Below are positions 26,801 to 40,618 of a stretch of DNA of 64,000 nt, in pieces. Both the position numbers and the translations under genes were made by a program. The first letter of the stretch is position 1. Every line of letters starts with the position of its first letter. The stretch is taken from IMG/VR virus record IMGVR_UViG_3300020054_000866, positions 1 through 64,000 of that record, one strand, 5' to 3'. The notes under the pieces were generated by a model that made no database searches, was not told the origin of the DNA, and saw nothing but the letters and a program-made list of their open reading frames with translations. The stretch comes from a virus.

Positions 26801-27249
26801 TGGCGATTGATTTTCCGAACTCTCCTAGCGTCAATGACATCTACTCAGTAGGCGATCGTTCATGGCTATGGAATGGCACGTATTGGGAGGTTCGCGCTAC
26901 TCCAACTCAGACGTTTAGCGTGTCTGACACGGCTCCAGGTTCTCCACAGTCGGGTGACATGTGGTATCGCTCTGATACCTCGCAAACGCTCATCTACTAC
27001 GATTCGACATGGGTGGAGATCGGTCACTCAGCTAACATTGCGAGCTTTGTGCAAGATGCTGATACCGATACAAAGATTCAAGTCGAAGAATCTGCCGACG
27101 AGGACACAATAAGATTTGACATCGCCGGGACTGAAAAGATGACGCTGGACTCAGCTGGGTTAGCGGTGACTGGCACAATCACTACGAACGGCGCATCGGT
27201 CGCCACGACAGGCAAGGCCATTGCAATGGCTATGGTTTTTGGAGGCTGA
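26800..27249 (+). CDS. Fibre head protein with MAIDFPNSP cassette
   Basis: The 149-aa protein contains three short cassettes: MAIDFPNSPSVNDIY...WNGTYWEV, SDTAPGSPQSGDMWYRSDT...WVEIG, and a DADTDTKIQVEESADEDTI...GTEKMTLDSAG block that recurs at 34276 and 36323. It ends after TTGKAIAMAMVFGG. It has no visible tip and may connect tips to the fibre shaft. Confidence 0.65.
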   Translation: MAIDFPNSPSVNDIYSVGDRSWLWNGTYWEVRATPTQTFSVSDTAPGSPQSGDMWYRSDTSQTLIYYDSTWVEIGHSANIASFVQDADTDTKIQVEESADEDTIRFDIAGTEKMTLDSAGLAVTGTITTNGASVATTGKAIAMAMVFGG

Positions 27250-27250
27250 C

Positions 27251-27628
27251 ATGGCTGCACCTAATATTGTAAACGTCGCAACAATCACCGCCAAAACCGC
27301 TCTAGTACGCCTCGCAGACACAAGTGAGAACACGCTCGTTTCTAACTCCGCGTCGTCTGGCAAGGTGTTCAAGATCAACAATATTATTGTTTCCAACGTT
27401 GATGGCACAGACGACGCCACAATTACTGTCGTTGTCTGGGACACCGCCACTGTCGGTTCTACAAACGGCACAAAGATTGCTCACACTATCAATGTTCCCG
27501 CCGATTCGACGCTTGTTCTTATTGATAAGTCATCGGCCATCTATCTCGAGGAGGATAGGTCTATCGGGGTCACCGCCTCGGCTGCTGACGATCTACACGT
27601 CATCTGCTCGTATGAAGAGATCTCGTAA
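27251..27628 (+). CDS. Small fibre-associated beta protein
   Basis: The ATG at 27251 has GGAGG 6 nt upstream and gives 125 aa; an upstream start in the same frame overlaps the previous gene and lacks a site. The protein (VFKINNIIVSNVDGTDD... YEEIS) has the same layout as the products at 20362 and 29848. It overlaps the first propeller protein by one nucleotide. Confidence 0.6.
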   Translation: MAAPNIVNVATITAKTALVRLADTSENTLVSNSASSGKVFKINNIIVSNVDGTDDATITVVVWDTATVGSTNGTKIAHTINVPADSTLVLIDKSSAIYLEEDRSIGVTASAADDLHVICSYEEIS

Positions 27629-29496
27629 TGCCTACCCGTAAGTTCATAGGCATTGATAAAAACCCGGTTGCTTCTGATGCTTCTGGTGTTTGGGTTTTAT
27701 CTGAACATTATGCTGCTGTTCTTGGTAACAGATGGCCAGGAGATGCCGTGTATGCGCTGTTCGCAGGCGGCGAAAGCGCCTCAGGGGAGGAGAACACCAT
27801 TGACTATGTGGAAGTTGTCTCCGCTGGTAATGCCACGGACTTCGGTGACCTAACTCGAACGGCGTACTACCTTGCGGGCCTCAGTTCCACGACTCGTGGA
27901 GTGTTCGGAGGCGGTTACGTTGGCGGAGGCTATTCCAATGTCATCGACTATGTGACCATCGCAACGACTGGGGACGCTTCCGACTTCGGGGATTTGACAG
28001 TCGCTAGGTGGGAACTCGGTGGTGCGTCGAACGAAACCCGTGGCCTGTGGGCCGGTGGTCTAGCGGCTGGCTCTAGGAATAACACAATCGACTACATCAC
28101 GATCGCTACAACTGGGAACGCCACCGACTTCGGTGATCTGACAGAAGCCGCCCAAGCGCTGGCAGGCCTCGCATCTCCGGTCCACGCCATCTTCGTCGGC
28201 GGACGTACAGCCGCATTCAACTATGACACCCGAATCGACCATGTGGCGATCGCCTCCACGGGTGACGCTATCGCATGGGGCGAACTGACTGTCGGACGGT
28301 GGAGACTGGCGGCGGCATCGAACAGCACTCGTGGACTAGCGGCAGGTGGAGTCGGCGCCTCCGGTAACCTAGATGTCATTGACTACATCACGCTGGCCTC
28401 CGCAGGTAACGCCACGGACTTTGGTGACCTGAGTTTTGCCCGTCGGTGGCTTGCTGGTGCGGCATCCTCCACTCGTGCCATCTTCGGTGGAGGTACCGAC
28501 GGTAGCGTAACGAATGTCATTGACTCCGTAGAGATCGACACGCTCGGGAACGCCGTTGACTTCGGTGACTTGACTGTCGCCCGTCAGTCTGTCGCCGCCT
28601 GCTCTAACGGTCACGGTGGACTTACTCCGGAATCGCAAGTTGCGTCAGGACGAGGCATCCTCGCAGGCGGTTACACGCCAAGCGTTGTCAGCACCATCGA
28701 TTACTTCACGATCTCAACGGGTGGTAACGCCCTTGTGTTCGGTGGCCTCACGACAGCCAGAAGGGGTGTCGGGTCGTGTTCTTCTACGACCAGAGGTCTG
28801 TTCGGTGGAGGCTACACGGGAGCGAACTCCAACGTGATCGACTACATCACGATGGCTACCGCAGGCAACGCCACCGACTTCGGTGACCTGACTATCACCC
28901 GGGAGTCGACATTCGGTTGCTCTGATCCGACGAGAGGCATCTTCGCAGGCGGTTACACAACGTCGGAAGTGAACGTCATCGACTATGTGACCATCGCCAC
29001 GACCGGCAACGCAACCGACTTCGCTGACCTGACGGTCGCTCGGCAAACATCAGGATCGCTCGCATCCCCGACGAGGGGCATCTTCGGAGGTGGCTGGACT
29101 GGGGCTAACTCCAACGTCATTGACTACATCACGATTCAGACCATCGGAAACGCCACCGACTTCGGCGATCTCACCGTGTCACGCCATTGGCTTAGCGGGG
29201 TGTCATCAGCGACTCGTGGCGTGTTTAGTGGCGGCAATAGTGGAACCTCAACTATCGACTATGTGACCATCGCCACGACTGGGAACGCAACATCGTTTGG
29301 CAACATGGCTACCGCAAGAGAGGGAAGTGGCGGCGTGTCTAACAGCACGACCGGAGTGTTCTGTGGTGGCCTTAGTACCGCAACCTGTGATGCGATCACT
29401 ATTGCGACCACCGGGAACGCCACGACCTACGGGTCTCTCACACAAGCCCGTTCACGGCTTGATGGTGTATCAGACAGTCACGGAGGACTCCAATGA
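27628..29496 (+). CDS. Adhesin-like protein: two tandem six-repeat propellers
   Basis: After an about 45-aa head, this 622-aa protein consists of 12 repeats of about 46 aa with the core NVIDYVTIATTGN-ATDFGDLTVAR followed by a TRGxFGGGY strand. Repeats 1-6 end with CSNGHGGL (nt about 28608) and repeats 7-12 with VSDSHGGL at the C-terminus. The six-plus-six layout and closing motif suggest two six-bladed beta-propellers of the kelch/RCC1 type, probably glycan- or protein-binding. The repeat family occurs in other phages; the hexad reading is my own count. Stop overlaps the ATG of a truncated remnant. Confidence 0.78.
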   Translation: MPTRKFIGIDKNPVASDASGVWVLSEHYAAVLGNRWPGDAVYALFAGGESASGEENTIDYVEVVSAGNATDFGDLTRTAYYLAGLSSTTRGVFGGGYVGGGYSNVIDYVTIATTGDASDFGDLTVARWELGGASNETRGLWAGGLAAGSRNNTIDYITIATTGNATDFGDLTEAAQALAGLASPVHAIFVGGRTAAFNYDTRIDHVAIASTGDAIAWGELTVGRWRLAAASNSTRGLAAGGVGASGNLDVIDYITLASAGNATDFGDLSFARRWLAGAASSTRAIFGGGTDGSVTNVIDSVEIDTLGNAVDFGDLTVARQSVAACSNGHGGLTPESQVASGRGILAGGYTPSVVSTIDYFTISTGGNALVFGGLTTARRGVGSCSSTTRGLFGGGYTGANSNVIDYITMATAGNATDFGDLTITRESTFGCSDPTRGIFAGGYTTSEVNVIDYVTIATTGNATDFADLTVARQTSGSLASPTRGIFGGGWTGANSNVIDYITIQTIGNATDFGDLTVSRHWLSGVSSATRGVFSGGNSGTSTIDYVTIATTGNATSFGNMATAREGSGGVSNSTTGVFCGGLSTATCDAITIATTGNATTYGSLTQARSRLDGVSDSHGGLQ

Positions 29497-29549
29497 CCGA
29501 ACTAGCACTCACCGCATCGCAGAAATTTATCATTGACATTGGAGACTGA
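29493..29549 (+). pseudogene. Truncated copy of the start of the 39821 gene
   Basis: An 18-codon ORF begins MTELALTASQ, identical to the first ten residues of the gene at 39821, with 28 identical nucleotides (29494-29521 and 39822-39849). It then diverges and stops just before the next MAIDFP cassette. In both places it directly follows a propeller gene. This is a deletion or recombination scar. Confidence 0.85.
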
Positions 29550-29552
29550 GCC

Positions 29553-29843
29553 GTGGCTATTGATTTTCCTAACTCCCCTTCAGTAAACGACACCTACACC
29601 ACCAACGGTAAAACCTACCTATGGGACGGAACCGCGTGGACTGTGTATGGAACATTCACTGTACGCTCCACTACCTCGGACACGGAGCCGACGGGCGTTT
29701 TAGATGGTCACATCTGGTATAGAAGTGATCAATCTCAGACTTTGATAAGATATGACGGTACGTGGATAGAAATCGGTGCGTCCACAGCGGCAAGCGGTGG
29801 TGACACGGGTTTCGCTAACAGTTTTATGACGATGGGAGCGTAA
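29553..29843 (+). CDS. Short fibre head protein with MAIDFPNSP cassette
   Basis: The 96-aa protein has the MAIDFPNSPSVNDTYT...LWDGTAWTVYG head and the GHIWYRSDQSQTLIRYDGTWIEIG cassette, then a short end. The start is GTG with GGAG upstream. It lacks a tip domain. Confidence 0.65.
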   Translation: MAIDFPNSPSVNDTYTTNGKTYLWDGTAWTVYGTFTVRSTTSDTEPTGVLDGHIWYRSDQSQTLIRYDGTWIEIGASTAASGGDTGFANSFMTMGA

Positions 29844-29847
29844 AGAC

Positions 29848-30177
29848 ATGGCGCAGGCTTACAAGGTGCTCGGACAGATCGCACCGTCCGCAACGACAGC
29901 GACGACTATCTACACGGTGCCGTCTGCTACCGAGGCGGTCGTGTCCAGCATCGTCGTCTGTAACCGGTCGTCATCTAGTGTTACATTCCGAATCTCCGTT
30001 AGGCCGAACGGTGCTTCGCTGGCGAATCAGCACTATCTGGTGTATGACGCACCTCTCGTTGGAAGCGACACGCTGATCTTCACCGTCGGCTTGACGTTAG
30101 ATGCGACCGATGTTCTTGAAGCCTACGCCTCGTCCGGGGACTTGACGTTTCAGGCTTACGGGTCGGAGATTTCGTAA
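29848..30177 (+). CDS. Small fibre-associated beta protein
   Basis: The 109-aa protein (YTVPSATEAVVSSIVVCNRSS..., ending FQAYGSEIS) is a beta-rich protein that matches the layout of the 20362 and 27251 products. It may be a virion-associated trimerising or spacer chain. It is separated by 3 nt from the next gene. Confidence 0.6.
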   Translation: MAQAYKVLGQIAPSATTATTIYTVPSATEAVVSSIVVCNRSSSSVTFRISVRPNGASLANQHYLVYDAPLVGSDTLIFTVGLTLDATDVLEAYASSGDLTFQAYGSEIS

Positions 30178-30180
30178 GTC

Positions 30181-31107
30181 ATGGCGATCTACTCTGTCAA
30201 ACAAGGAGGACCGAGTTTCCGCCTTCTTGATGCAACTGTTGGCAACTTTCTGTTGGACTATTTGGTTGTTGCTGGCGGCGGCGCAGGCGGCTACTCATAC
30301 GCCGGTGGTGGAGGTGCGGGTGGCTTGTTGACTAACACATCCGTGGAGCGTTCACTTAGCACTTCGTATCTCGTCACGGTAGGTGCTGGCGGAGCGGCAT
30401 CATCAACGGTGCCGAAACCTCTGACGATGAATGGTTCTAACTCCGTGTTCGATTCCTTCACGTCTGTTGGTGGCGGTGCTGGCGGGCGAGGCGCTCAAAG
30501 CGCACCAGATCGAGATGGCTATGACGGCGGTTCCGGTGGTGGCGGTGGCGGTTGGACCGCTGGCTCTGGCGGGTTAGGAACAGCAGGTCAAGGCAACGAC
30601 GGCGGCGACGGCGACCTCAACCCCGATAAGAAAGGTGGTGGAGGTGGTGGTGCTGGTGCCGCCGGTTCCAACGGAACAGCATCCTCTGGCGGCAACGGCG
30701 GTATCGGGTCGATCTCAACTATCGTCACGACGACTATTGCTTCCAGCGCATCCGTTGGAGAAGTCAGCGGAAGCGATGTCTACTTTGCTGGCGGCGGTGG
30801 CGGCGGTGTCCAAGACATCAGCAACTTCGGTGACGGTGGTCTAGGTGGTGGGGGAGATGGCGGCTCCAACTTGACTGGACCGGGGACAGGAAGCGCAGGT
30901 CAAGTTGGAACTGGTGGCGGTGGCGGCGGCGGTGACCAAACTCATCTCGGCGGCAACGGTGGCTCCGGTGCCGTGATCTTCCGATACCCGTCAACGCTGG
31001 CGATAACTGTTGGCGCTGGGCTGACCTCAACGACGAGCGTTGTCGGATCGGACAAGGTGACGGTGATTACGGCAGGTTCAGACAACGTCAGTTGGGAGGT
31101 TGCCTGA
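30181..31107 (+). CDS. Glycine-rich adhesin-like protein
   Basis: The 308-aa protein has a short head (AIYSVKQGGPSFRLLD) followed directly by the glycine-rich domain (YLVVAGGGAGGYSY to GGSGAVIFRY) and the terminal beta part TVGAGLTSTTSVVGSDKVTV. It is a probable receptor-binding tip; many Gly-Gly-X runs may form polyglycine II helices as in T-even adhesins. The stop overlaps a truncated chaperone-like remnant. Confidence 0.74.
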   Translation: MAIYSVKQGGPSFRLLDATVGNFLLDYLVVAGGGAGGYSYAGGGGAGGLLTNTSVERSLSTSYLVTVGAGGAASSTVPKPLTMNGSNSVFDSFTSVGGGAGGRGAQSAPDRDGYDGGSGGGGGGWTAGSGGLGTAGQGNDGGDGDLNPDKKGGGGGGAGAAGSNGTASSGGNGGIGSISTIVTTTIASSASVGEVSGSDVYFAGGGGGGVQDISNFGDGGLGGGGDGGSNLTGPGTGSAGQVGTGGGGGGGDQTHLGGNGGSGAVIFRYPSTLAITVGAGLTSTTSVVGSDKVTVITAGSDNVSWEVA

Positions 31108-31211
31108 TGGCTCACTACGCCTTCCTTGACGACGACGGGATCGTGACTGGCGTGATTGTCGGTCGTGACGAGAACCTGCTGAACTGGACCCCTGCTACTC
31201 TCGGAGACTGA
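31107..31211 (+). pseudogene. Truncated chaperone-like ORF
   Basis: The 34-codon ORF starts MAHYAFLDDDGIVTGVIVGRDE, matching the start of the 127-aa product at 33893, then diverges and stops immediately before the next MAIDFP cassette. It appears to be the front end of a chaperone-like gene cut off by insertion or recombination. Confidence 0.75.
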
Positions 31212-31214
31212 CCT

Positions 31215-32072
31215 ATGGCGATCGACTTTCCCGATTCCCCCTCTGTTGGCGACCAGTTCGTCGCGTCCGGCAAAACGTATCAATGGGACGGCACCGTCTG
31301 GACCATTTACGGGCCACAAACCAACCCTGACATCTTCAAAGTAGACACCACTAACAACAGGGTTGGTATCAACAGTGCGTCTCCCTCTGTCACTCTAGAT
31401 GTAACAGGAGACGCAGCAGTTTCTGGAGATCTAGATGTTACAGGAGAATTTACTTCTAGAGGTTACCGTTATGTCCAGACGCTGTATTTCACTTCGTCGG
31501 GGTCGTTCACGAAAGCGACGTATCCGTGGCTGAGGGCGATCCGTGTGAAGTGTCAGGGTGCTGGTGCGGGCGGCGCTAACCGGAACGTCGCCTACACTTC
31601 GTCGCCCGGTGGTGGTGGCGGTGCTATGGCGGAATCGTTCATTACCGATATCGCTAGCCTTGGAGCATCAGAAACCATTACGGTCGGTGCTGGTAGTGCT
31701 GGCGTTGCTTCCGGTGTTCAGGGTGATTCGTCCTCTGGTGGAAATTCGTCGTTTGGAGCGCTGGTTATCGGTGTCGGCGGTAGTGGCACTTCAGGGCTTG
31801 CTACTTATGGCGGGGTAGGCGGGTTGTCGTCGGCGTGTACCGGTGATTTTGCGGTAAGTGGAAACGACGGCGGCACTGGAAGCCTTGAGGACGACGGCCA
31901 CGGCGGTAACGGCGGCGGCTCGCATTTCGGTGGCGGCGGCTATGGAGGCCGACGTAACACAACTCCTGGCGCAAACGGAAGGGATTATGGCGGCGGCGGT
32001 GGTGGCGGAACCGAAACCGCCGCCGCTGGTGCTGGTGCTAACGGGATTGTGATCGTGGAGTTGTACGCATGA
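31215..32072 (+). CDS. Fibre protein: MAIDFP head with glycine-rich tip
   Basis: The 285-aa protein joins the MAIDFPDSPSVGDQF head, a shaft-like NRVGINSASPSVTLDVTGD block, and the FTSSGSFTKATYPWLRAIRV domain leading into a glycine-rich part that ends ANGIVIVELYA. The FTSSG...P(W/A)G entry is a recognised type of glycine-rich tip. It overlaps the next gene by 4 nt. Confidence 0.74.
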   Translation: MAIDFPDSPSVGDQFVASGKTYQWDGTVWTIYGPQTNPDIFKVDTTNNRVGINSASPSVTLDVTGDAAVSGDLDVTGEFTSRGYRYVQTLYFTSSGSFTKATYPWLRAIRVKCQGAGAGGANRNVAYTSSPGGGGGAMAESFITDIASLGASETITVGAGSAGVASGVQGDSSSGGNSSFGALVIGVGGSGTSGLATYGGVGGLSSACTGDFAVSGNDGGTGSLEDDGHGGNGGGSHFGGGGYGGRRNTTPGANGRDYGGGGGGGTETAAAGAGANGIVIVELYA

Positions 32073-32257
32073 AATACGCACTAATCAACGCTGACGGTTT
32101 GGTTGTGAACGCTATCGTGTGGGACGGTCAAACCGACTACACCGCACCCGATGGGCTGGCCGTTGTTGCTATTCCTGATGGTGTTGGCGCTGGTCCCGGC
32201 TGGACCTATGACGGCGCCAACTGGATCGCACCGCCGCCTGAAGAGCTCGAAGAATAG
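32069..32257 (+). CDS. Small fibre accessory protein
   Basis: The 62-aa protein begins KYALINADGLVVNAIVWDG and ends WIAPPPEELEE, resembling the front half of fibre chaperone-like proteins but lacking the PYPSW half. It is the last gene before a promoter-containing spacer. Confidence 0.6.
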   Translation: MKYALINADGLVVNAIVWDGQTDYTAPDGLAVVAIPDGVGAGPGWTYDGANWIAPPPEELEE

Positions 32258-32304
32258 CCAATTATTCTTCAACAGCTCGTAAAATCGCGGCTGCTCGTGT
32301 AGTG

Positions 32305-32310
32305 TATAAT
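32305..32310 (+). promoter_or_regulatory. Internal promoter of the fibre array
   Basis: A perfect TATAAT lies in the 86-nt spacer 32258-32343, the longest gap inside the array. Transcription would start near 32317, with GGAGG (32331-32335) before the ATG at 32344. It may allow separate expression of the distal adhesins. Confidence 0.5.
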
Positions 32311-32343
32311 TTGGTGAGATCTTGTGCGTTGGAGGCCGTCTAA

Positions 32344-33612
32344 ATGGCAATTGATTTTCCAAACTCCCCAACCACCGGTGACACGTACACTGCTGGCGGT
32401 AGGACGTGGCAGTGGGACGGTACCGTCTGGGCCGCATACGGCAACTATCCCGACCCCACCGTCCTGAAGATTGATACCGGTACCAACCGTGTCGGTATCA
32501 ACAACACGTCCCCCACGACCGCGTTAGACGTAACCGGTGACCTGACGGTCTCTGGCAAGGTCAATGCCACCGCCCCCACCTCTACCAAGACAGCAAGTTA
32601 CACACTCGCTGCCGGTGATGAGAACACTCGCATCGTAATGAATAACGCTGGGGCGACGACCATTACTGTTGATGATGGTGTGTTTGCGGCTGGTGACACG
32701 GTGTGGATTCACAACATTGGTGCTGGTACGACGACGGTTACGGCTGGTACTGCGACGGTTGATACTGCTGGTTCGTTGGACGTTGGACAGTGGGAGGGCG
32801 GAAGTCTTTACTTCACATCTGCGTCCTCTGCAATCTTTTTTCGTGGTGGCGGAGCAGGCGTAGCATACGGTGCCGCTACTGGCGGCACATCCTCCACGAT
32901 CACGGTTGATGGCGATTCGTACACTTTGTTGGAGTTCACTTCGTCCAGCACGTTGACCGTGACTAAGGCTGGCGTGTTTGACGTTCTTGTTGTTGGCGGT
33001 GGCGGTGGCGGCGGTACTGCTGGCTCCCTCATCTGTGGTGCTGGTGCTGCTGGTGGCTACCGCCAGTTCGACAAGGTATATTTCGACACGAACCAGACGG
33101 TCGTTGTCGGTGCTGGCGATTCGGTGAACGGCTACCGAGGCACCGGTTCACGATGCGGTCAACCGTTCGTCGGTGGAGGCGGTAGCACTAACCAATACCT
33201 GCAAGGTCGAAACGGTGCCTCCGGTGGTGGCGGTGGATACTCCACGGCTGTCGGCGGCAAGGGCGACGACGCAAGCGGCAATAACGGCGGCGGCGGTGCG
33301 TCTAGTGCTGGTGGCGGCGGCGGCGGTGCTGGGGCAGTTGGTGCTAACGCTACGTCGGGCGCAGGCGGCAACGGTGGCGACGGACTGGACGCATCGACGT
33401 TTCGCGGTGAGTCCGCAGGAACTACCTATTACGCAGGTGGAGGCGGCGGTGAAGGCGGCACGACCCGTGGCCTCGGCGGTCTTGGCGGTGGTGGAAACGG
33501 CAAAGACCCGGGCAACGCATCTACAGCAGGAGCCACCAACACAGGTGGTGGCGGTGGTGGCGACGGCTCCTCTGGTGGATCCGGCATTGTCCTAGTGAGG
33601 TTCAAGAACTAA
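32344..33612 (+). CDS. Fibre protein: MAIDFP head, beta shaft and glycine-rich tip
   Basis: The 422-aa protein has the MAIDFPNSPTTGDTYT head, the NRVGINNTSPTTALDVTGD block, a YTLAAGDENTRIVMNNAG beta module and a C-terminal glycine-rich domain (FDVLVVGGGGGGG to GGSGIVLVRF). It is the longest glycine-rich fibre of the array and the first gene behind the internal promoter. Likely receptor-binding. Confidence 0.76.
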   Translation: MAIDFPNSPTTGDTYTAGGRTWQWDGTVWAAYGNYPDPTVLKIDTGTNRVGINNTSPTTALDVTGDLTVSGKVNATAPTSTKTASYTLAAGDENTRIVMNNAGATTITVDDGVFAAGDTVWIHNIGAGTTTVTAGTATVDTAGSLDVGQWEGGSLYFTSASSAIFFRGGGAGVAYGAATGGTSSTITVDGDSYTLLEFTSSSTLTVTKAGVFDVLVVGGGGGGGTAGSLICGAGAAGGYRQFDKVYFDTNQTVVVGAGDSVNGYRGTGSRCGQPFVGGGGSTNQYLQGRNGASGGGGGYSTAVGGKGDDASGNNGGGGASSAGGGGGGAGAVGANATSGAGGNGGDGLDASTFRGESAGTTYYAGGGGGEGGTTRGLGGLGGGGNGKDPGNASTAGATNTGGGGGGDGSSGGSGIVLVRFKN

Positions 33613-33875
33613 TGGCACATTTCGCACGCATTGACAACAACACGGTCATTGAGGTCATTGTCATTTCCGACGACAACTGCCCTGATCCTGCCCCCAACAA
33701 CGAATCAGCAGGACAGACGTTCATCGCTGACGTTCTCGGACTCGCAGGCGAATGGAAGCAAACCTCATACAACGGGAACTTCCGTGGCACCTACGCCGGA
33801 ATCGGCTACACCTACGATCCTGCTATTGATGAGTTTGTGCCGCCCCCTGTAACTGAAGAACCGACCCCCGAGTAA
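33612..33875 (+). CDS. Small fibre accessory protein
   Basis: The 87-aa protein begins AHFARIDNNTVIEVIVISDD and has YNGNFRGTYAGIGYTYDP near the end, a pattern frequent in small proteins after fibre genes. It overlaps the previous stop by one nucleotide. It shares the AGIGYTYD strand with the 33893 product. Confidence 0.62.
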   Translation: MAHFARIDNNTVIEVIVISDDNCPDPAPNNESAGQTFIADVLGLAGEWKQTSYNGNFRGTYAGIGYTYDPAIDEFVPPPVTEEPTPE

Positions 33876-33879
33876 GAGG

Positions 33880-33885
33880 TATAAT
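33880..33885 (+). promoter_or_regulatory. -10 element giving a leaderless transcript
   Basis: TATAAT ends 7 nt before the ATG at 33893 and no Shine-Dalgarno is present, so a transcript from here would begin at the start codon. Confidence 0.5.
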
Positions 33886-33892
33886 CACACCT

Positions 33893-34276
33893 ATGGCACA
33901 TTACGCATTTCTTGACAACAACAACGTCGTCACTGAGGTCATCGTCGGACGTGATGAAGATGAAGTCGTTGACGGCGTTACGGACTGGGAGGCTTACTAC
34001 GGTGAGTTCCGGGGCCAGACCTGTAAGCGCACCTCGTACAACACGCAGGGCGGACAGCACACTGGTGACGGCACCCCGTACCGTAAGAACTACGCCGGTA
34101 TCGGATACACGTACGATGCCGACCGTGACGCCTTCATTCCGCCCCAGCCGTACGCTTCGTGGGTCCTGAACGAGGACACCTGCCTGTGGGACGCCCCCAC
34201 CCCGATGCCTGATGACGGACAGGAGTACACGTGGAACGAAGACACGACCTCATGGGAAGTAGTTGAGGCTGAGTAA
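33893..34276 (+). CDS. Tail-fibre chaperone-like protein
   Basis: The 127-aa protein is the full-length form of this family: MAHYAFLDNNNVVTEVIVG, DWEAYYGEFRGQTC, RKNYAGIGYTYD, then PPQPYASWVLNEDTCLW and PDDGQEYTWNEDT. Paralogues are at 21581 (back half), 31107 (front fragment) and 35900 (full length). Preceded by a probable leaderless promoter. Role in fibre assembly is inferred from its regular position after tip genes. Confidence 0.68.
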   Translation: MAHYAFLDNNNVVTEVIVGRDEDEVVDGVTDWEAYYGEFRGQTCKRTSYNTQGGQHTGDGTPYRKNYAGIGYTYDADRDAFIPPQPYASWVLNEDTCLWDAPTPMPDDGQEYTWNEDTTSWEVVEAE

Positions 34277-35082
34277 TGGCGATCAATTTCCCCGACTCTC
34301 CTTCTAACGGCGACACCGTCACCGTCGGTGACAAGACGTGGACGTGGAACGGATCGACGTGGGATGTTGTCGTATCGACCCCGATCTCTAATCAGATCGT
34401 TGATGCGGATGGCGATACCCGCGTCCACGTAGAAGAGTCCCCCGACGAAGATTACTTACGTTTCGATACTGCTGGTACCGAGCGTATGACGATCAACCCT
34501 TCAGGCAATGTCGCTATGACCGGCGATCTTACGGTTACGGGTACTATTGCTGGTGGGTCTACTACCTTTCCCACTACGTTGGATTCTGGAACGATGCCCG
34601 CAATCGAGGCGCTTCAGGCGAAGGTTGGTGTCAATAGTTCTGCTGTTGCGACTTCGCATGATTACATTCTGAATCAGCCGACCGCTTTCACGTTGAAGGC
34701 TCCGTTGGAGTTGTGGACCATTTCGGCTACAGCGGCCACAGGAACCGTGAACGTCGATCTGAAGTCGTCAGGCGCACATTATTTCACGGCGGATGCTACG
34801 GCGAACTGGACATACAATTTCCGTGGCGATGCGTCTACCAGTCTTGATTCTGTGTTGGCTGTCGGTGAATCGGTCACCGCTGTTCACGCAGTGACCAACG
34901 GCGCGACAGCTTACTATCCGACGGCGTTTCAGGTTGACGGTTCGGCGGTGACACCCAAGTGGTCGGGTGGTTCTGCACCCACTTCGGGTAATGCTAGTTC
35001 GGTTGATGCTTACCTGTTTACTGTTGTCAAGACTGCTAGCGCTACGTTTACGGTGTTGGCTCAGCAGGTTCAGTTTGCCTGA
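34276..35082 (+). CDS. Fibre protein with MAINFPDSP head
   Basis: The 268-aa protein carries MAINFPDSPSNGDTV...WTWNGSTWDV, the DADGDTRVHVEESPDEDYL...GTERMTINPSG block, a short shaft, and a C-terminal beta domain (VKTASATFTVLAQQVQFA) typical of phage tip modules that start with a YNFRGD-like segment. It overlaps both neighbours by one nucleotide. Confidence 0.7.
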   Translation: MAINFPDSPSNGDTVTVGDKTWTWNGSTWDVVVSTPISNQIVDADGDTRVHVEESPDEDYLRFDTAGTERMTINPSGNVAMTGDLTVTGTIAGGSTTFPTTLDSGTMPAIEALQAKVGVNSSAVATSHDYILNQPTAFTLKAPLELWTISATAATGTVNVDLKSSGAHYFTADATANWTYNFRGDASTSLDSVLAVGESVTAVHAVTNGATAYYPTAFQVDGSAVTPKWSGGSAPTSGNASSVDAYLFTVVKTASATFTVLAQQVQFA

Positions 35083-35897
35083 TGCCTATTTTAGGTGCGG
35101 TTTCTCAGCCTGCTGGGGCGATCAGGTATGGCCGTCCGCCGCTAGAGGTTGAATATCTGGTTGTCGCTGGCGGCGGGGGTGGCGGAGGAGGCGACGATGC
35201 CGACGGCGGAGGCGGTGGTGGAGGCGCAGGTGGCTTCCTGACCAGTACCGTGACTTTGACGGCTGGTTCTAATTACACTGTAACAGTTGGCGGTGCTGGC
35301 GGTGGATCGCCATCGCTCAGCGTTGGCTCTAGTGGCGGAAACTCAGTATTCGATTCGGCCACAGCAATTGGCGGTGGTCGTGCCGCTAGCCGTGGCGGTG
35401 GCGGTCAAAGCGGCGGTTCCGGCGGTGGATGTTTCCGAAACGCCAATCGGGGATTGGGAACGGCTGGTCAAGGAAACGCTGGCGCAAGTAGCACGACTTC
35501 GTGGGCTGGCGGTGGCGGTGGTGGTGCCGGTGCAGGTGGTAGCAACATGAACGGTGGTGCTGGTCTTGCGTTTTATGGCACCTATTACGCTGGCGGTGGT
35601 GGTGGCGGCAGAAACGGTGCTACCGCTACTGGTTCCGGTGGTGCTGGTGGTGGCGGGAACGGTGCTGCAAACGGTTCTGCTGGTACGCACGGTCTTGGCG
35701 GTGGTGGCGGCGGTGGTCAAGGAGGATGGAATACCAACTCCTTGGGTGCCCGTGGTGGTTCTGGTGTTGTTATTCTGCGCTATCCAGACGTATATACCTT
35801 GACAGTTGCGGCAGGTCATACTGCTTCTACCACCACAAGCGGATCAACCAAGATCACTACTATTACTGCCGGTTCTGGCTCTGTTTCTTGGAGTTGA
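35082..35897 (+). CDS. Glycine-rich adhesin-like protein
   Basis: The 271-aa protein has a minimal head (PILGAVSQPAGAIRYGRPP) and then the glycine-rich domain (YLVVAGGGGGGGG to GGSGVVILRY) with the terminal TVAAGHTASTTTSGSTKITT beta part. The domain is nearly the whole protein, making it a good candidate for a stand-alone tip like gp38. The chaperone-like gene at 35900 follows by 2 nt. Confidence 0.74.
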   Translation: MPILGAVSQPAGAIRYGRPPLEVEYLVVAGGGGGGGGDDADGGGGGGGAGGFLTSTVTLTAGSNYTVTVGGAGGGSPSLSVGSSGGNSVFDSATAIGGGRAASRGGGGQSGGSGGGCFRNANRGLGTAGQGNAGASSTTSWAGGGGGGAGAGGSNMNGGAGLAFYGTYYAGGGGGGRNGATATGSGGAGGGGNGAANGSAGTHGLGGGGGGGQGGWNTNSLGARGGSGVVILRYPDVYTLTVAAGHTASTTTSGSTKITTITAGSGSVSWS

Positions 35898-35899
35898 CG

Positions 35900-36286
35900 A
35901 TGTGGCATTATGCTTTACTTGACGAAAACAATGTTGTGACCGATATCATCACTGGTCAAAACCCCAATGTTGTCGTGGACGGTGTTGATAACTGGGAATC
36001 GTATTACGGTGAGTTTCACGGCTGTAGGGCTGTGGGGTCTGATTGCGACATGTTTGGTGGTCAACACTTGGATGGAGGTGTTCCATTCCGCAAAAACCAT
36101 GCGTCTATCGGCGGCACCTATGATGAAAGCCGCGATGCTTTTATTCCGTCACAGCCATACCCGTCATGGGTGCTAGACGAAGATACCTGCTTGTGGAACG
36201 CTCCGGCCCCTAAACCAAATGACGGCAATGCGTATGGCTGGGACGAGGACACTGTTAGTTGGGTTCAGATCGACGAAGGTGATTGA
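35900..36286 (+). CDS. Tail-fibre chaperone-like protein
   Basis: The start is the ATG at 35900, giving 128 aa; a longer frame reads back into the adhesin gene and is unlikely. It has MWHYALLDENNVVTDIITG, NWESYYGEFHGCRA, and PSQPYPSWVLDEDTCLW with a DEDTVSW end, so it is a full-length paralogue of the 33893 product. The mid region differs and could match the different preceding tip. Confidence 0.68.
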   Translation: MWHYALLDENNVVTDIITGQNPNVVVDGVDNWESYYGEFHGCRAVGSDCDMFGGQHLDGGVPFRKNHASIGGTYDESRDAFIPSQPYPSWVLDEDTCLWNAPAPKPNDGNAYGWDEDTVSWVQIDEGD

Positions 36287-36297
36287 TAATGTGTTAC

Positions 36298-36303
36298 TAT
36301 AGT
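36298..36303 (+). promoter_or_regulatory. -10 element before the last MAIDFP gene
   Basis: TATAGT lies in a 36-nt spacer, with GGAGGG 14 nt downstream acting as ribosome site for the ATG at 36323. The -35 is not clear. Confidence 0.4.
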
Positions 36304-36322
36304 TCTGACACTGGAGGGTGTA

Positions 36323-37093
36323 ATGGCAATTGATTTTCCGTCGTCCCCATCAGTAAATGACTCGTTTACCTCAGGGGGCAAAACTTGGGTATGGAACGGT
36401 ACGTACTGGAAGTTGTACGGCTCTGTTCTGCGCGGCCTGAGTCTTGAGATCTCCGACACGCCCCCTGCTTCTCCTGTATCAGGAGATATGTGGTATGAGT
36501 CAGATACGGGGCGCACGTTCACGTATTATGACGGCGCATGGGTGGAGTTAGGTAACACCGCCGCTGTTACAGCGTTCTTGACCGACGCAGATGGAGATAC
36601 CATCGTCCACGTCGAAGAGGGCACAGACGACGACACTATCCGCTTTGATACGGCAGGTAGTGAGCGTATGACCATTGACGCGAGTGGTGACGTCACCATT
36701 GGCGGCAACCTGGCAGTTGGCTCTAACACTGACGTCGAAGCCAGCATTGATGCAGTTGAAGCCGATGTTTCTAACATCAATGAACTTCAGCAGAACGAGC
36801 AGACTGGAACCACCTACACGCTGGTTCTTGCTGACGGTGGTAAGTTGGTGGAGATGAACAATGCTTCGGCAAATACGTTGACTGTTCCCCCGAACTCCTC
36901 AGTTGCTTTCCCTGTGGGTTCTCAGATTCTGGTTCTTCAGACTGGTGCTGGTCAGACGACGTTGGCCCCCGACACTGGCGTTACCATCAACTCTAAGGAC
37001 GGTAATTTGAAGTTGTCGGATCAGTGGTGTGGCGTGACGTTGATCAAGCGTGCCACTGATGTGTGGGTGGCTATTGGCGATCTGAGCGCCTGA
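36323..37093 (+). CDS. Fibre protein with MAIDFPSSP head
   Basis: The 256-aa protein combines MAIDFPSSPSVNDSF...WNGTYWKLYG, SGDMWYESDTGRTFTYYDG, the DADGDTIVHVEEGTDDDTI...GSERMTIDASG block, a helix (VEASIDAVEADVSNINELQ) and a beta end (YTLVLADGGKLVEMNNAS...VTLIKRATDVWVAIGDLSA). The same end module appears in the middle of the 32344 product, so modules have been moved between genes. Confidence 0.7.
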   Translation: MAIDFPSSPSVNDSFTSGGKTWVWNGTYWKLYGSVLRGLSLEISDTPPASPVSGDMWYESDTGRTFTYYDGAWVELGNTAAVTAFLTDADGDTIVHVEEGTDDDTIRFDTAGSERMTIDASGDVTIGGNLAVGSNTDVEASIDAVEADVSNINELQQNEQTGTTYTLVLADGGKLVEMNNASANTLTVPPNSSVAFPVGSQILVLQTGAGQTTLAPDTGVTINSKDGNLKLSDQWCGVTLIKRATDVWVAIGDLSA

Positions 37094-37103
37094 GGCTGAC
37101 AAC

Positions 37104-39824
37104 ATGAAGTTGTCTACCTTCTCCGGGTTTATTAGCGCAGTAATCGCCGGTACCCGTGCGTTGTTTTTTGGCGGTTATACGGGGTCTGCTCGTAGCGATG
37201 TAATCGACTATGTCAACATTGAGACTCTGGGTAATGCCACCGATTTTGGTGATCTAACCGTTGCTCGTAACGGTGGTGCGGCTGGGGCTTCTTCAACTCG
37301 CGCTTTATTTGCTGGCGGTTACTCCACCTCCAGAGAAAACACTATTGACTATGTAACTATCGCCACGCTGGGTAATGCAACAGACTTCGGTAATCTGACA
37401 CAGAACGCCTCCGGTCAGGCGGGTGCGTCTAACGAAACACGTTTCGTAATAGGCGGCGCAAACATTACGAGTGCGTACTACGCCTTTAGCAATCGCATCG
37501 AGTATGTGACTATTGCTTCCACGGGTAATGCTATAAACGTAGGAGGCTTGACAGTAACTAGGGCTGAGGCTGGTGGAGTTGAGTCACCTGTTCACGGTTT
37601 GTTTATGGGCGGTCAGTTCGTGAACTCAGCAGCGACCGTATTCAGCACATATAACACTATTGACTACGTTACATTTAGTTCTTTAGGTAACGCTCTGGAT
37701 TTTGGTGATCTAACACAAGCACGTTTCGTTGGCGGTCCCGCATCTAACTCTGTCAGAGGTCTGTACGCTGGCGGTGTAAGCCGAGTTGGTACGACTAGTG
37801 CTACCGTCCTAAGAGACACCATTGACTACTTGACCCTTGCGGCTAGAGGCAACTCCGCAGATTTCGGTAATCTTAGTGTCGCTTCTAGCAGTAACGCTGG
37901 GGCGGCTTCTTCATCGAGGGCACTATTCACCCTCGGTTATCCCAATTCTTACGGCAGTAACACCATTGAATATGTTGAGATTGCCACTACCGGCAACACT
38001 GTTGATTTTGGTGATCTCACCATTGCTCGTAATGCTGACGGCACCTCTGGCGGTCACGGTGGGCTGATCTTAGTTCTGCCTACTGCTGACGGTACTCGTG
38101 CGCTGTTCGGTGGCGGTCTCGTTGATGGCGGTTCTGTCAGAACGCAGATCGACACGGTACTGATCGCTTCGACTGGGAACGCCACCGACTTCGGTGACCT
38201 GACGCAGGCTCGAACTTATCTCAACGGGTTGTCTTCCTCTACAAGAGGCGTGTTTACCGGCGGCAATATCGGAAGCAGCACCCGTGTCAACACGATGGAT
38301 TATGTGACCATCGCTGAGGGTGGGACCGCCCTTGACTTCGGTGACCTGACGTTGGTTCACGACGATCATGGAACAGCATCTAATGAAACCCGAGGTCTGA
38401 ACTTCGGTGGTCAAACTCCAACTGTTCTGACTAACGTGATTGACTACATCACGATTGCTACGACTGGTAATGCTACGGACTTCGGTGACCTAAGTTGGGG
38501 TGCGAGCCGTAACCCGATGGCGGTCCAGTCTCCCATCCACGGCATCGTTCACGGCGGTTCCATCGACCAAGACGGCATCTACTACGTTGCGTTTGCGTCG
38601 ACCGGCAACACGGTGCAGTGGGGAACCCTGTATCAGACAAACTATTCGGTGAGCAACGGTGTGTCTAATGCCACCCGAGGCGTGTTCGCTGGTGGCGGCA
38701 CCGTAGCGAATGTGATCCAAGCCATTACGCTGGCATCTGCCGGAAACTCGATAGACTTTGGTGACCTGACGGTGGCAAGAGCAAAGGCGGCTGGTGCCGC
38801 TTCTCCGACCCGTGGCCTGTTTGCTTCGGGTGAGGGCTACTACAACGTGATCGACTACATCGACATCGCCACATTCGGTAATGTTGCCGACTTCGGTGAT
38901 CTCACGGAGACGATCTTGAAGCCGGGTGCCTGCTCTGACGGTCACGGTGGGCTTGGAGCGTCACCGTTGGAGTCAATCTCCAACATCGGCGTGTTCGACA
39001 ACGGGGACTACATCGAATACCTGAACATCGCTTCGACCGGTAACTCGCTGAACTTCGGCAAGTTGAGTACCGCAAGGTCACGGATGGATGCTGTCGGTTC
39101 CACTACTCGGGCCGTGTTCGGTCCCGGCTTGGGGGACGATGTTACCATTGACTATCTGACGTTCACGACCGGTGGCGACGCTACTGACTTCGGTGATACA
39201 ACGTCCGCTCGTTCAGCAATGGGCGGTTGTGGGAACTCTACCCGAGGACTGTTCGGCGGTGGCATCCCTAACTCGGACGTCATCGACTATGTGACCATCG
39301 CCACGACCGGCAACGCAACCGACTTCGGTGATCTGACGGTGAGCCGTGGTGATACGTCAGCAACATCCAACTCCACCCGAGGCTTGTTCTGCGGAGGTGC
39401 CACGACTCCCGGCCCGACAGTCCGAAACCAGATCGACTATGTGACCATCGCAACCACCGGAAACGCTACCGACTTTGGTGATCTCACGGTGGCTCGTCGT
39501 GATCTCGGTGCTTCTGCGTCCACTACTAGGGCTGTCATCGTCGGCGGTCGTGACGCTACGGCTTCCGGTTGGTACAACACGATGGATTACGTCACCATCG
39601 CTACGACAGGAAACGCTACGGACTTCGGTGACCTGACGGTTGCCCGAGGGAAATGTAAGTCTATGTCGAACACGACGAGAGGTATCTGTACCCCCGGCGA
39701 GGGTTACAACGTCATCGACTACTGGACGATCGCCACCACCGGGAACGCCACCGACTTTGGTGACGCATCGACCGCCTCCTATCACGGTGGCGCAACATCA
39801 AACTGTCATGGAGGACTGTCGTGA
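37104..39824 (+). CDS. Adhesin-like protein: three tandem six-repeat propellers
   Basis: The 906-aa protein has a short head and 18 repeats of about 46 aa with the IDYVTIATTGNATDFGDL core. An HGGL motif closes repeat 6 (GGHGGL, nt about 38050), repeat 12 (SDGHGGL, about 38938) and repeat 18 (SNCHGGL, at the end), giving three blocks of exactly six. It is paralogous to the 27628 product, which has two such blocks. This strongly suggests propeller number varies by whole units. Probable receptor or glycan binder at the fibre tip. Confidence 0.78.
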   Translation: MKLSTFSGFISAVIAGTRALFFGGYTGSARSDVIDYVNIETLGNATDFGDLTVARNGGAAGASSTRALFAGGYSTSRENTIDYVTIATLGNATDFGNLTQNASGQAGASNETRFVIGGANITSAYYAFSNRIEYVTIASTGNAINVGGLTVTRAEAGGVESPVHGLFMGGQFVNSAATVFSTYNTIDYVTFSSLGNALDFGDLTQARFVGGPASNSVRGLYAGGVSRVGTTSATVLRDTIDYLTLAARGNSADFGNLSVASSSNAGAASSSRALFTLGYPNSYGSNTIEYVEIATTGNTVDFGDLTIARNADGTSGGHGGLILVLPTADGTRALFGGGLVDGGSVRTQIDTVLIASTGNATDFGDLTQARTYLNGLSSSTRGVFTGGNIGSSTRVNTMDYVTIAEGGTALDFGDLTLVHDDHGTASNETRGLNFGGQTPTVLTNVIDYITIATTGNATDFGDLSWGASRNPMAVQSPIHGIVHGGSIDQDGIYYVAFASTGNTVQWGTLYQTNYSVSNGVSNATRGVFAGGGTVANVIQAITLASAGNSIDFGDLTVARAKAAGAASPTRGLFASGEGYYNVIDYIDIATFGNVADFGDLTETILKPGACSDGHGGLGASPLESISNIGVFDNGDYIEYLNIASTGNSLNFGKLSTARSRMDAVGSTTRAVFGPGLGDDVTIDYLTFTTGGDATDFGDTTSARSAMGGCGNSTRGLFGGGIPNSDVIDYVTIATTGNATDFGDLTVSRGDTSATSNSTRGLFCGGATTPGPTVRNQIDYVTIATTGNATDFGDLTVARRDLGASASTTRAVIVGGRDATASGWYNTMDYVTIATTGNATDFGDLTVARGKCKSMSNTTRGICTPGEGYNVIDYWTIATTGNATDFGDASTASYHGGATSNCHGGLS

Positions 39825-40618
39825 CCGAACTAGCACTCACCGCATCGCAACTACCGGAACGGTACGAGCAGATGATCGACAAGGTGACCGAACTGCTCCC
39901 AAGGATCGACGCATCGAACGAGTCGTTCTACAAGTCGGACTCACAACTCAAGACCGTCTCGCTGAACGTCACCGACCTGACCGATGTTGGTGCGGCGAAG
40001 CATATCCTCGCCCGTATCGAACGGAAGCGGGAAGCGTTGAAGGAGTCCGAGTTGGGGTTGCGCCGTAAGCGGATCGAACTCGCTCAGAAACAAGACGAAC
40101 TGGAATCAGCATCCGGGTACGCCGCCGAACTGTTAGAGATCGACATTCTGGAACTGTCGTCACAGATCGAATCGACGCAGAACTACCAGCGGGGTGCCGT
40201 CCGTGAGGTGACGTTCCTCGTTCACCAGTACGAAGCAATCTGCGACAAGTTAGGTGTCGAAGTCATCACCGAAGAAATGTACGAGGCGAACGAGTCGAAG
40301 GCTCAAGTGATGCGGGCGTTCTCGCAGGCGCTCGCCGCCGCCCGCTCACGGCAGGGCTTGATCGACGAAGGCAACTTCATCTTCTTCCAAGACCTCGGCA
40401 TCAACGGTGCCGCCGCCCAACGGGAACTCATCACCTACCTCGAAATGGAACAGCAGATGCTCAACGAGGGCAAGGTGCCGACGTTCGAGGTTCAGTACGG
40501 CTGGCTGGATGCGGTCAGCGACAAGTTCGCCCCACAAGTCGCCTTGTACGCCGAGCATCGTGGACTCATCCCGCAAGTCGAAGCCGCCCTCGCACAACCG
40601 AAGGAATTAACAGTATGA
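39821..40618 (+). CDS. Coiled-coil protein following the propeller adhesin
   Basis: The 265-aa protein starts with GTG overlapping the previous stop. It is mostly helical with a long coiled-coil (about residues 60-145, IERKREALKESELGLRRKRI) and a C-terminal alpha region with QYGWLDAVSDKFAPQ. The first ten residues recur as the remnant at 29493 after the other propeller gene, which implies a paired function, perhaps a chaperone or trimerisation partner for propeller adhesins. Family not recognised. Confidence 0.65.
   Translation: MTELALTASQLPERYEQMIDKVTELLPRIDASNESFYKSDSQLKTVSLNVTDLTDVGAAKHILARIERKREALKESELGLRRKRIELAQKQDELESASGYAAELLEIDILELSSQIESTQNYQRGAVREVTFLVHQYEAICDKLGVEVITEEMYEANESKAQVMRAFSQALAAARSRQGLIDEGNFIFFQDLGINGAAAQRELITYLEMEQQMLNEGKVPTFEVQYGWLDAVSDKFAPQVALYAEHRGLIPQVEAALAQPKELTV

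Follow-up and report, generated by a model that had tools for sequence, protein, structure and literature searches.

An 18-codon open reading frame (ORF) located directly behind a kelch-like repeat propeller gene, referred to here as the scar, probably marks the right-hand junction of a replacement within a tail-fibre gene array, at which an imported propeller body overshot into the start of the gene following the second propeller (partner gene). Judged from its sequence, the ORF is best read as an in-frame chimera of partner codons 1–10 and roughly the final eight codons of a MAHYA-family gene, and it is probably devoid of a peptide function in its fused form. The analyzed window comprises 64,000 nt of the virus record IMGVR_UViG_3300020054_000866 (whole record 109,822 nt), which represents an uncultivated virus. 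Between approximately 20 and 41 kb, the window harbors a tail-fibre-type array composed of genes with MAIDFP heads, glycine-rich fibres, small MAHYA genes and two kelch-like repeat propellers, and this array leads into a Dit-like tail gene. Features of the array that are relevant to the scar are compiled in Table 1.

Table 1. Coordinates of the scar, its flanking genes and related features within the window.
Feature	Coordinates	Strand	Remarks
Propeller gene 1 (622 aa) with two tandem units ending in HGGL	27628..29496	+	ORF, phrog_19111
Left copy of the imperfect 53-nt direct repeat (perfect 28 nt: 29494-29521)	29469..29521	+	Last propeller codons, Shine-Dalgarno, stop, partner codons 1-10
Chimeric 18-codon ORF, MTELALTASQ/KFIIDIGD-stop	29493..29549	+	Seen in this virus only
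Scar, 3' half: probably the final 8 codons of a MAHYA-family gene, and spacer; contains GGAGAC	29522..29552	+	GGAGACTGA leader signature
Right flank: MAIDFP-head gene behind the scar	29553..29843	+	L183 homology begins at 29554
Second scar, 34-codon MAHYA remnant	31107..31211	+	282 bp deleted in frame between 9-bp repeats GACGAGAAC
Propeller gene 2 (906 aa) with three units ending in HGGL	37104..39824	+	
53-nt repeat, right copy, with the beginning of the intact partner	39797..39849	+	
Intact partner gene, 265 aa, single copy	39821..40618	+	Conserved behind propeller genes in dozens of phage contigs

The scar frame reads MTELALTASQKFIIDIGD and terminates with a stop codon at positions 29547-29549. 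Its start codon ATG (29493-29495) overlaps the stop codon TGA of propeller gene 1 (29494-29496) in the arrangement ATGA, and a Shine-Dalgarno sequence precedes the ORF within the 5' extension of the repeat. The scar stop codon is followed by GCC and then by the GTG start of the MAIDFP head at 29553, which confirms the earlier observation that the frame stops 3 nt before this head. The scar together with the intact partner 10.3 kb downstream recurs in two further IMG/VR contigs showing 99.96–100% identity; since the same structure was obtained in two other assemblies, the scar is regarded as a real feature of the virus and not as an assembly error.

The identity between 29494-29521 and 39822-39849, each located at the end of a propeller gene, had already been noticed by the sequence-only reading and is exact (28/28 nt). 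The identical stretch starts within the 4 nt in which the propeller stop and the partner start overlap. Three of its nucleotides are supplied by the propeller stop codon. The peptide common to scar and partner comprises 10 residues; codon 10 differs, being CAG (scar) or CAA (partner). Allowing for mismatches, the repeat reaches 53 nt at 87% identity on its 5' side, where it takes in the Shine-Dalgarno sequence and the final codons of the propeller; beyond its 3' end the match breaks off sharply, with one identical position within the next 10 nt. Searching the motif with up to three mismatches yielded two occurrences in the window and none in 100 shuffled sequences, and likewise only two places in the entire record, where none would be expected. 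A pattern search of IMG/VR for starts of the MTELALTA type or endings of the FIIDIGD type in this context returned none outside this virus. A conserved functional peptide, the finding that would have spoken against a scar, is rejected, since such coding patterns were found in this context in this virus only, and the comparison supports the interpretation of the scar as a remnant of the 5' end of the partner gene.

Homologues of the partner (approximately 22–61% amino acid identity) were found in dozens of IMG/VR contigs, many of them directly following a propeller gene and often succeeded by a homologue of the gene at 40615. In its own record the partner is present intact once, and exactly one copy was counted in each of the 16 related contigs checked (one of which represents the same virus), most of these contigs featuring several propeller matches. 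Further copies of the partner start were not found in 37 related loci. The partner is therefore a conserved single-copy gene that commonly follows a propeller, and not a companion of every propeller. Conservation is among the lowest at its first ten residues, which read MSQLETISTH in a homologue of 58% identity. As this N-terminus is poorly conserved in relatives, purifying selection does not explain the 28/28 identity, and identity at all synonymous positions points to recent transfer rather than constraint.

The second half of the scar had been taken for unrelated sequence, a view that is not supported by the leaders of neighboring genes. Among 95 distinct leaders preceding MAIDFP-type heads, five contain GGAGACTGA; one is that of the scar, and all four others (window position 31215, L148, L175 and L250) represent 3' ends of MAHYA-family genes ending in GD-stop. 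Moreover, the 3-nt spacing behind the scar ending FIIDIGD-stop is identical to that of the gene preceding 31215. Based on this 9-nt signature, the ending and the position, nucleotides 29522-29549 are assigned to what is probably the end of a MAHYA-family gene. Genes of this type stand before four of the seven MAIDFP-type heads in the window. The GGAGAC motif within 29522-29552 can serve as ribosome site for the next gene. Neither IMG/VR (degenerate pattern) nor the related loci examined yielded an intact MAHYA gene with the ending KFIIDIGD. The idea that the KFIIDIGD tail (AAATTTATCATTGACATTGGAGACTGA) is a mere intergenic leader was abandoned after leaders before MAIDFP heads had been compared.

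Relatives sharing the flanks, all of which are incomplete contigs, were also compared. The head of propeller gene 1 (27628 to approximately 27740, i.e., the first ~110 nt) and the preceding genes show 74–78% DNA identity to L183 and L099. A similar head (MPTRKFIGIDKN) is carried by glycine-rich bodies in three relatives (L183:673-1587, L099:3856-4770 and L110:3831-4727), and by a propeller body in the window. On the right, the MAIDFP gene at 29553 shows 94% amino acid identity in L096 and L183, with differing upstream DNA. L183 possesses both flanks (27061-27740 at 78% and 29554-29945 at 82%) around a different middle, indicating that the propeller body and the scar together constitute a replaced stretch extending from the head to the MAIDFP gene. 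In L183, itself an incomplete contig, the middle consists of the glycine-rich body and five other genes, the partner being absent. An intact partner at the scar position was sought in relatives, as proposed by the sequence-only reading, and none was found. One gene within the L183 fibre array (L183:1581-2078), starting with MADYEIIDNFMPEEYCSELVQLL, appears from its sequence to resemble a 2-oxoglutarate oxygenase.

Gapped alignment of the two propellers of the window revealed 57–59% identity over the last 150–450 nt, directly beside the 28/28 repeat. This juxtaposition suggests that the partner start probably arrived recently together with a different propeller allele. Furthermore, both propellers share a 51-nt exact match (28973-29023 and 39277-39327), the longest exact repeat in the 5–45 kb region, which suggests a recent exchange of propeller DNA at the level of blades. 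Among annotated phages, propeller matches were only distant ones, namely to Synechococcus phage S-SKS1.

A second junction within the array, at 31107-31211, is better documented on the sequence level than the scar at 29.5 kb. Its 34 encoded residues fuse the N-terminal and C-terminal parts of a MAHYA protein, for which an intact homologue of 128 aa is available (L175:6245-6631); the two sides match this gene at 65/72 and 45/45 nt. In the L175 gene, the 9-mer GACGAGAAC is present at offsets 60 and 342, compared with a single occurrence in the window remnant, from which an in-frame loss of 282 bp between short repeats follows. In-frame clipping of neighboring genes thus occurred at least one more time in this array.

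For the scar, the following course of events is proposed. The imported piece of DNA would have carried a propeller body together with its stop codon, followed by partner codons 1–10. On the left it would have been joined to the MPTRKFIGIDKN head already present in gene 27628, and on the right, in frame, to roughly the final eight codons of a MAHYA-family gene formerly located before the MAIDFP gene. The partner start would represent overshoot from a donor locus, i.e., a propeller-partner junction of this phage or a close relative, so that a complete second partner need never have existed at 29.5 kb, and none of the findings calls for one that was deleted later. No donor genome for the scar was found in IMG/VR. 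Both the direction of the event and its single-step nature are inferred here: a longer import followed by a deletion would also yield the same final sequence, and the 51-nt stretch leaves room for within-genome exchange; both points count against the proposal. Since the scar start overlaps the propeller stop and only 3 nt separate the scar stop from the next start, the mini-ORF may carry ribosomes on from the propeller gene into the MAIDFP gene.

The sequence-only reading had instead proposed that a propeller-plus-partner unit was duplicated and one partner subsequently lost. The remnant of the partner 5' end upholds part of this proposal; the single copy of the partner in 16/16 contigs and the divergence of the propellers speak against the remainder. 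In its more general form, a unit duplicated or imported as a whole would have suffered an internal deletion extending from partner codon 11 through most of the next gene. The in-frame deletion 1.6 kb away, at 31107, is comparable, relatives commonly contain the partner directly behind a propeller, and the 51-nt stretch common to both propellers would be compatible with such an origin. However, no relative with a partner at the scar position was found, and propeller 3' ends of 57–59% identity argue against one recent copy of the unit within this genome, because the propellers differ so much. This course of events is accordingly considered unlikely, and an imported propeller body overshooting into the partner start fits better than duplication of the unit with loss of a partner.

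Rather improbable is the insertion or exchange of a 10.3-kb block (29494-39821) via the 28-nt repeats, with propeller 1 and the partner having formerly been adjacent. Perfect repeats are present at either end, and if the block were removed, propeller 1 would be joined directly to the intact partner, as in the order of L022 (MANPNIVNV gene, propellers, partner). Only the long form was encountered, however, and no block-free contig was found; moreover, the contents of the block are shared piecewise with several relatives, so that the block itself is a mosaic. That this stretch, bounded by the 28-nt (53-nt imperfect) repeats, is a switchable fibre block is a very improbable extension of the same idea. 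If true, recombination between the repeats would delete 10.3 kb and set propeller 1 before the intact partner, and the population would possess two interchangeable receptor-binding configurations.

Selection of the 18-codon ORF, of whatever origin, as a coupling peptide or leader linking propeller and MAIDFP translation is similarly remote. The ATGA overlap, the upstream Shine-Dalgarno sequence and the stop 3 nt short of the next start would suit this function, and both junction ORFs of the array have kept an in-frame state. Nevertheless, the peptide is conserved nowhere outside this virus, the RNA fold is unremarkable (z = -0.96), and each fusion is in frame by chance in one of three cases. 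Repeat collapse during assembly, for which repetitive propeller genes in metagenome assemblies would be prone, has a negligible probability given the identical junction in two other assemblies (99.96–100%).

Other mechanisms were also considered. A structured RNA or a recombination-site palindrome was rejected in view of the fold value given above, a single 8-bp inverted repeat and no match to Rfam, and no promoter- or terminator-like site was present at the scar. A phage recombinase as the acting agent was likewise set aside, as RecA/UvsX (PF00154) and Rad52 (PF04098) had no match in the record. A diversity-generating retroelement is not supported, a reverse transcriptase (PF00078, RVT_1) being absent from the 109.8-kb record, which may be incomplete. 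Such retroelements act at the 3' ends of adhesin genes. As in such systems, a short, conserved sequence lies next to the 3' end of a variable gene of the receptor type, but variation here proceeds by whole bodies.

The replacement reading places the scar within ordinary, long-established phage tail-fibre mosaicism; it is a new example with readable junctions and no new mechanism. Swapping of fibre and adhesin modules between phages, with small gene pieces carried along, is described for lambda stf/tfa, P2, P1/p15B and T4 (cited as refs 71–74 in PMC3945230), and the scar is similar in this respect. Unlike those mosaics, it involves a kelch-like repeat propeller in a long MAIDFP/MAHYA/glycine-rich array of an uncultivated phage, its junctions are very short, and the account given here invokes no invertase. 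Exchange is reported to affect small gene fragments more frequently than complete functional modules, and it is debated whether limited-homology recombination or illegitimate joining gives rise to phage mosaics (PMC3945230). The remnant at 31107-31211 resembles slippage or microhomology deletion between short direct repeats (9-bp GACGAGAAC, 282 bp lost), whereas the 29.5-kb scar differs in having no nameable microhomology and no parental sequence found for its 3' half. Base-level junctions thereby become available for the rebuilding of tail-fibre arrays in uncultivated phages, in which heads are kept, bodies are swapped, neighbors are clipped in frame, and the ribosome site of each next gene is retained.

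Regarding the partner itself, no match was obtained in annotated phages, and nothing above the cut-off in Pfam and NCBIfam. Its AlphaFold2 model (pLDDT 83) is all helical, and fold searches gave no convincing match (best BFVD E = 0.006, PDB E = 0.2). As predicted by this model, the partner represents an orphan family with an all-helical fold; the family is conserved alongside propeller genes across dozens of uncultivated phages. Homologues of 41–43% identity were also observed on L277 and L278, two contigs whose records name a Pirellulales MAG and an Epulopiscium single cell; these contigs are probably viral and were binned with the named MAG and single cell.
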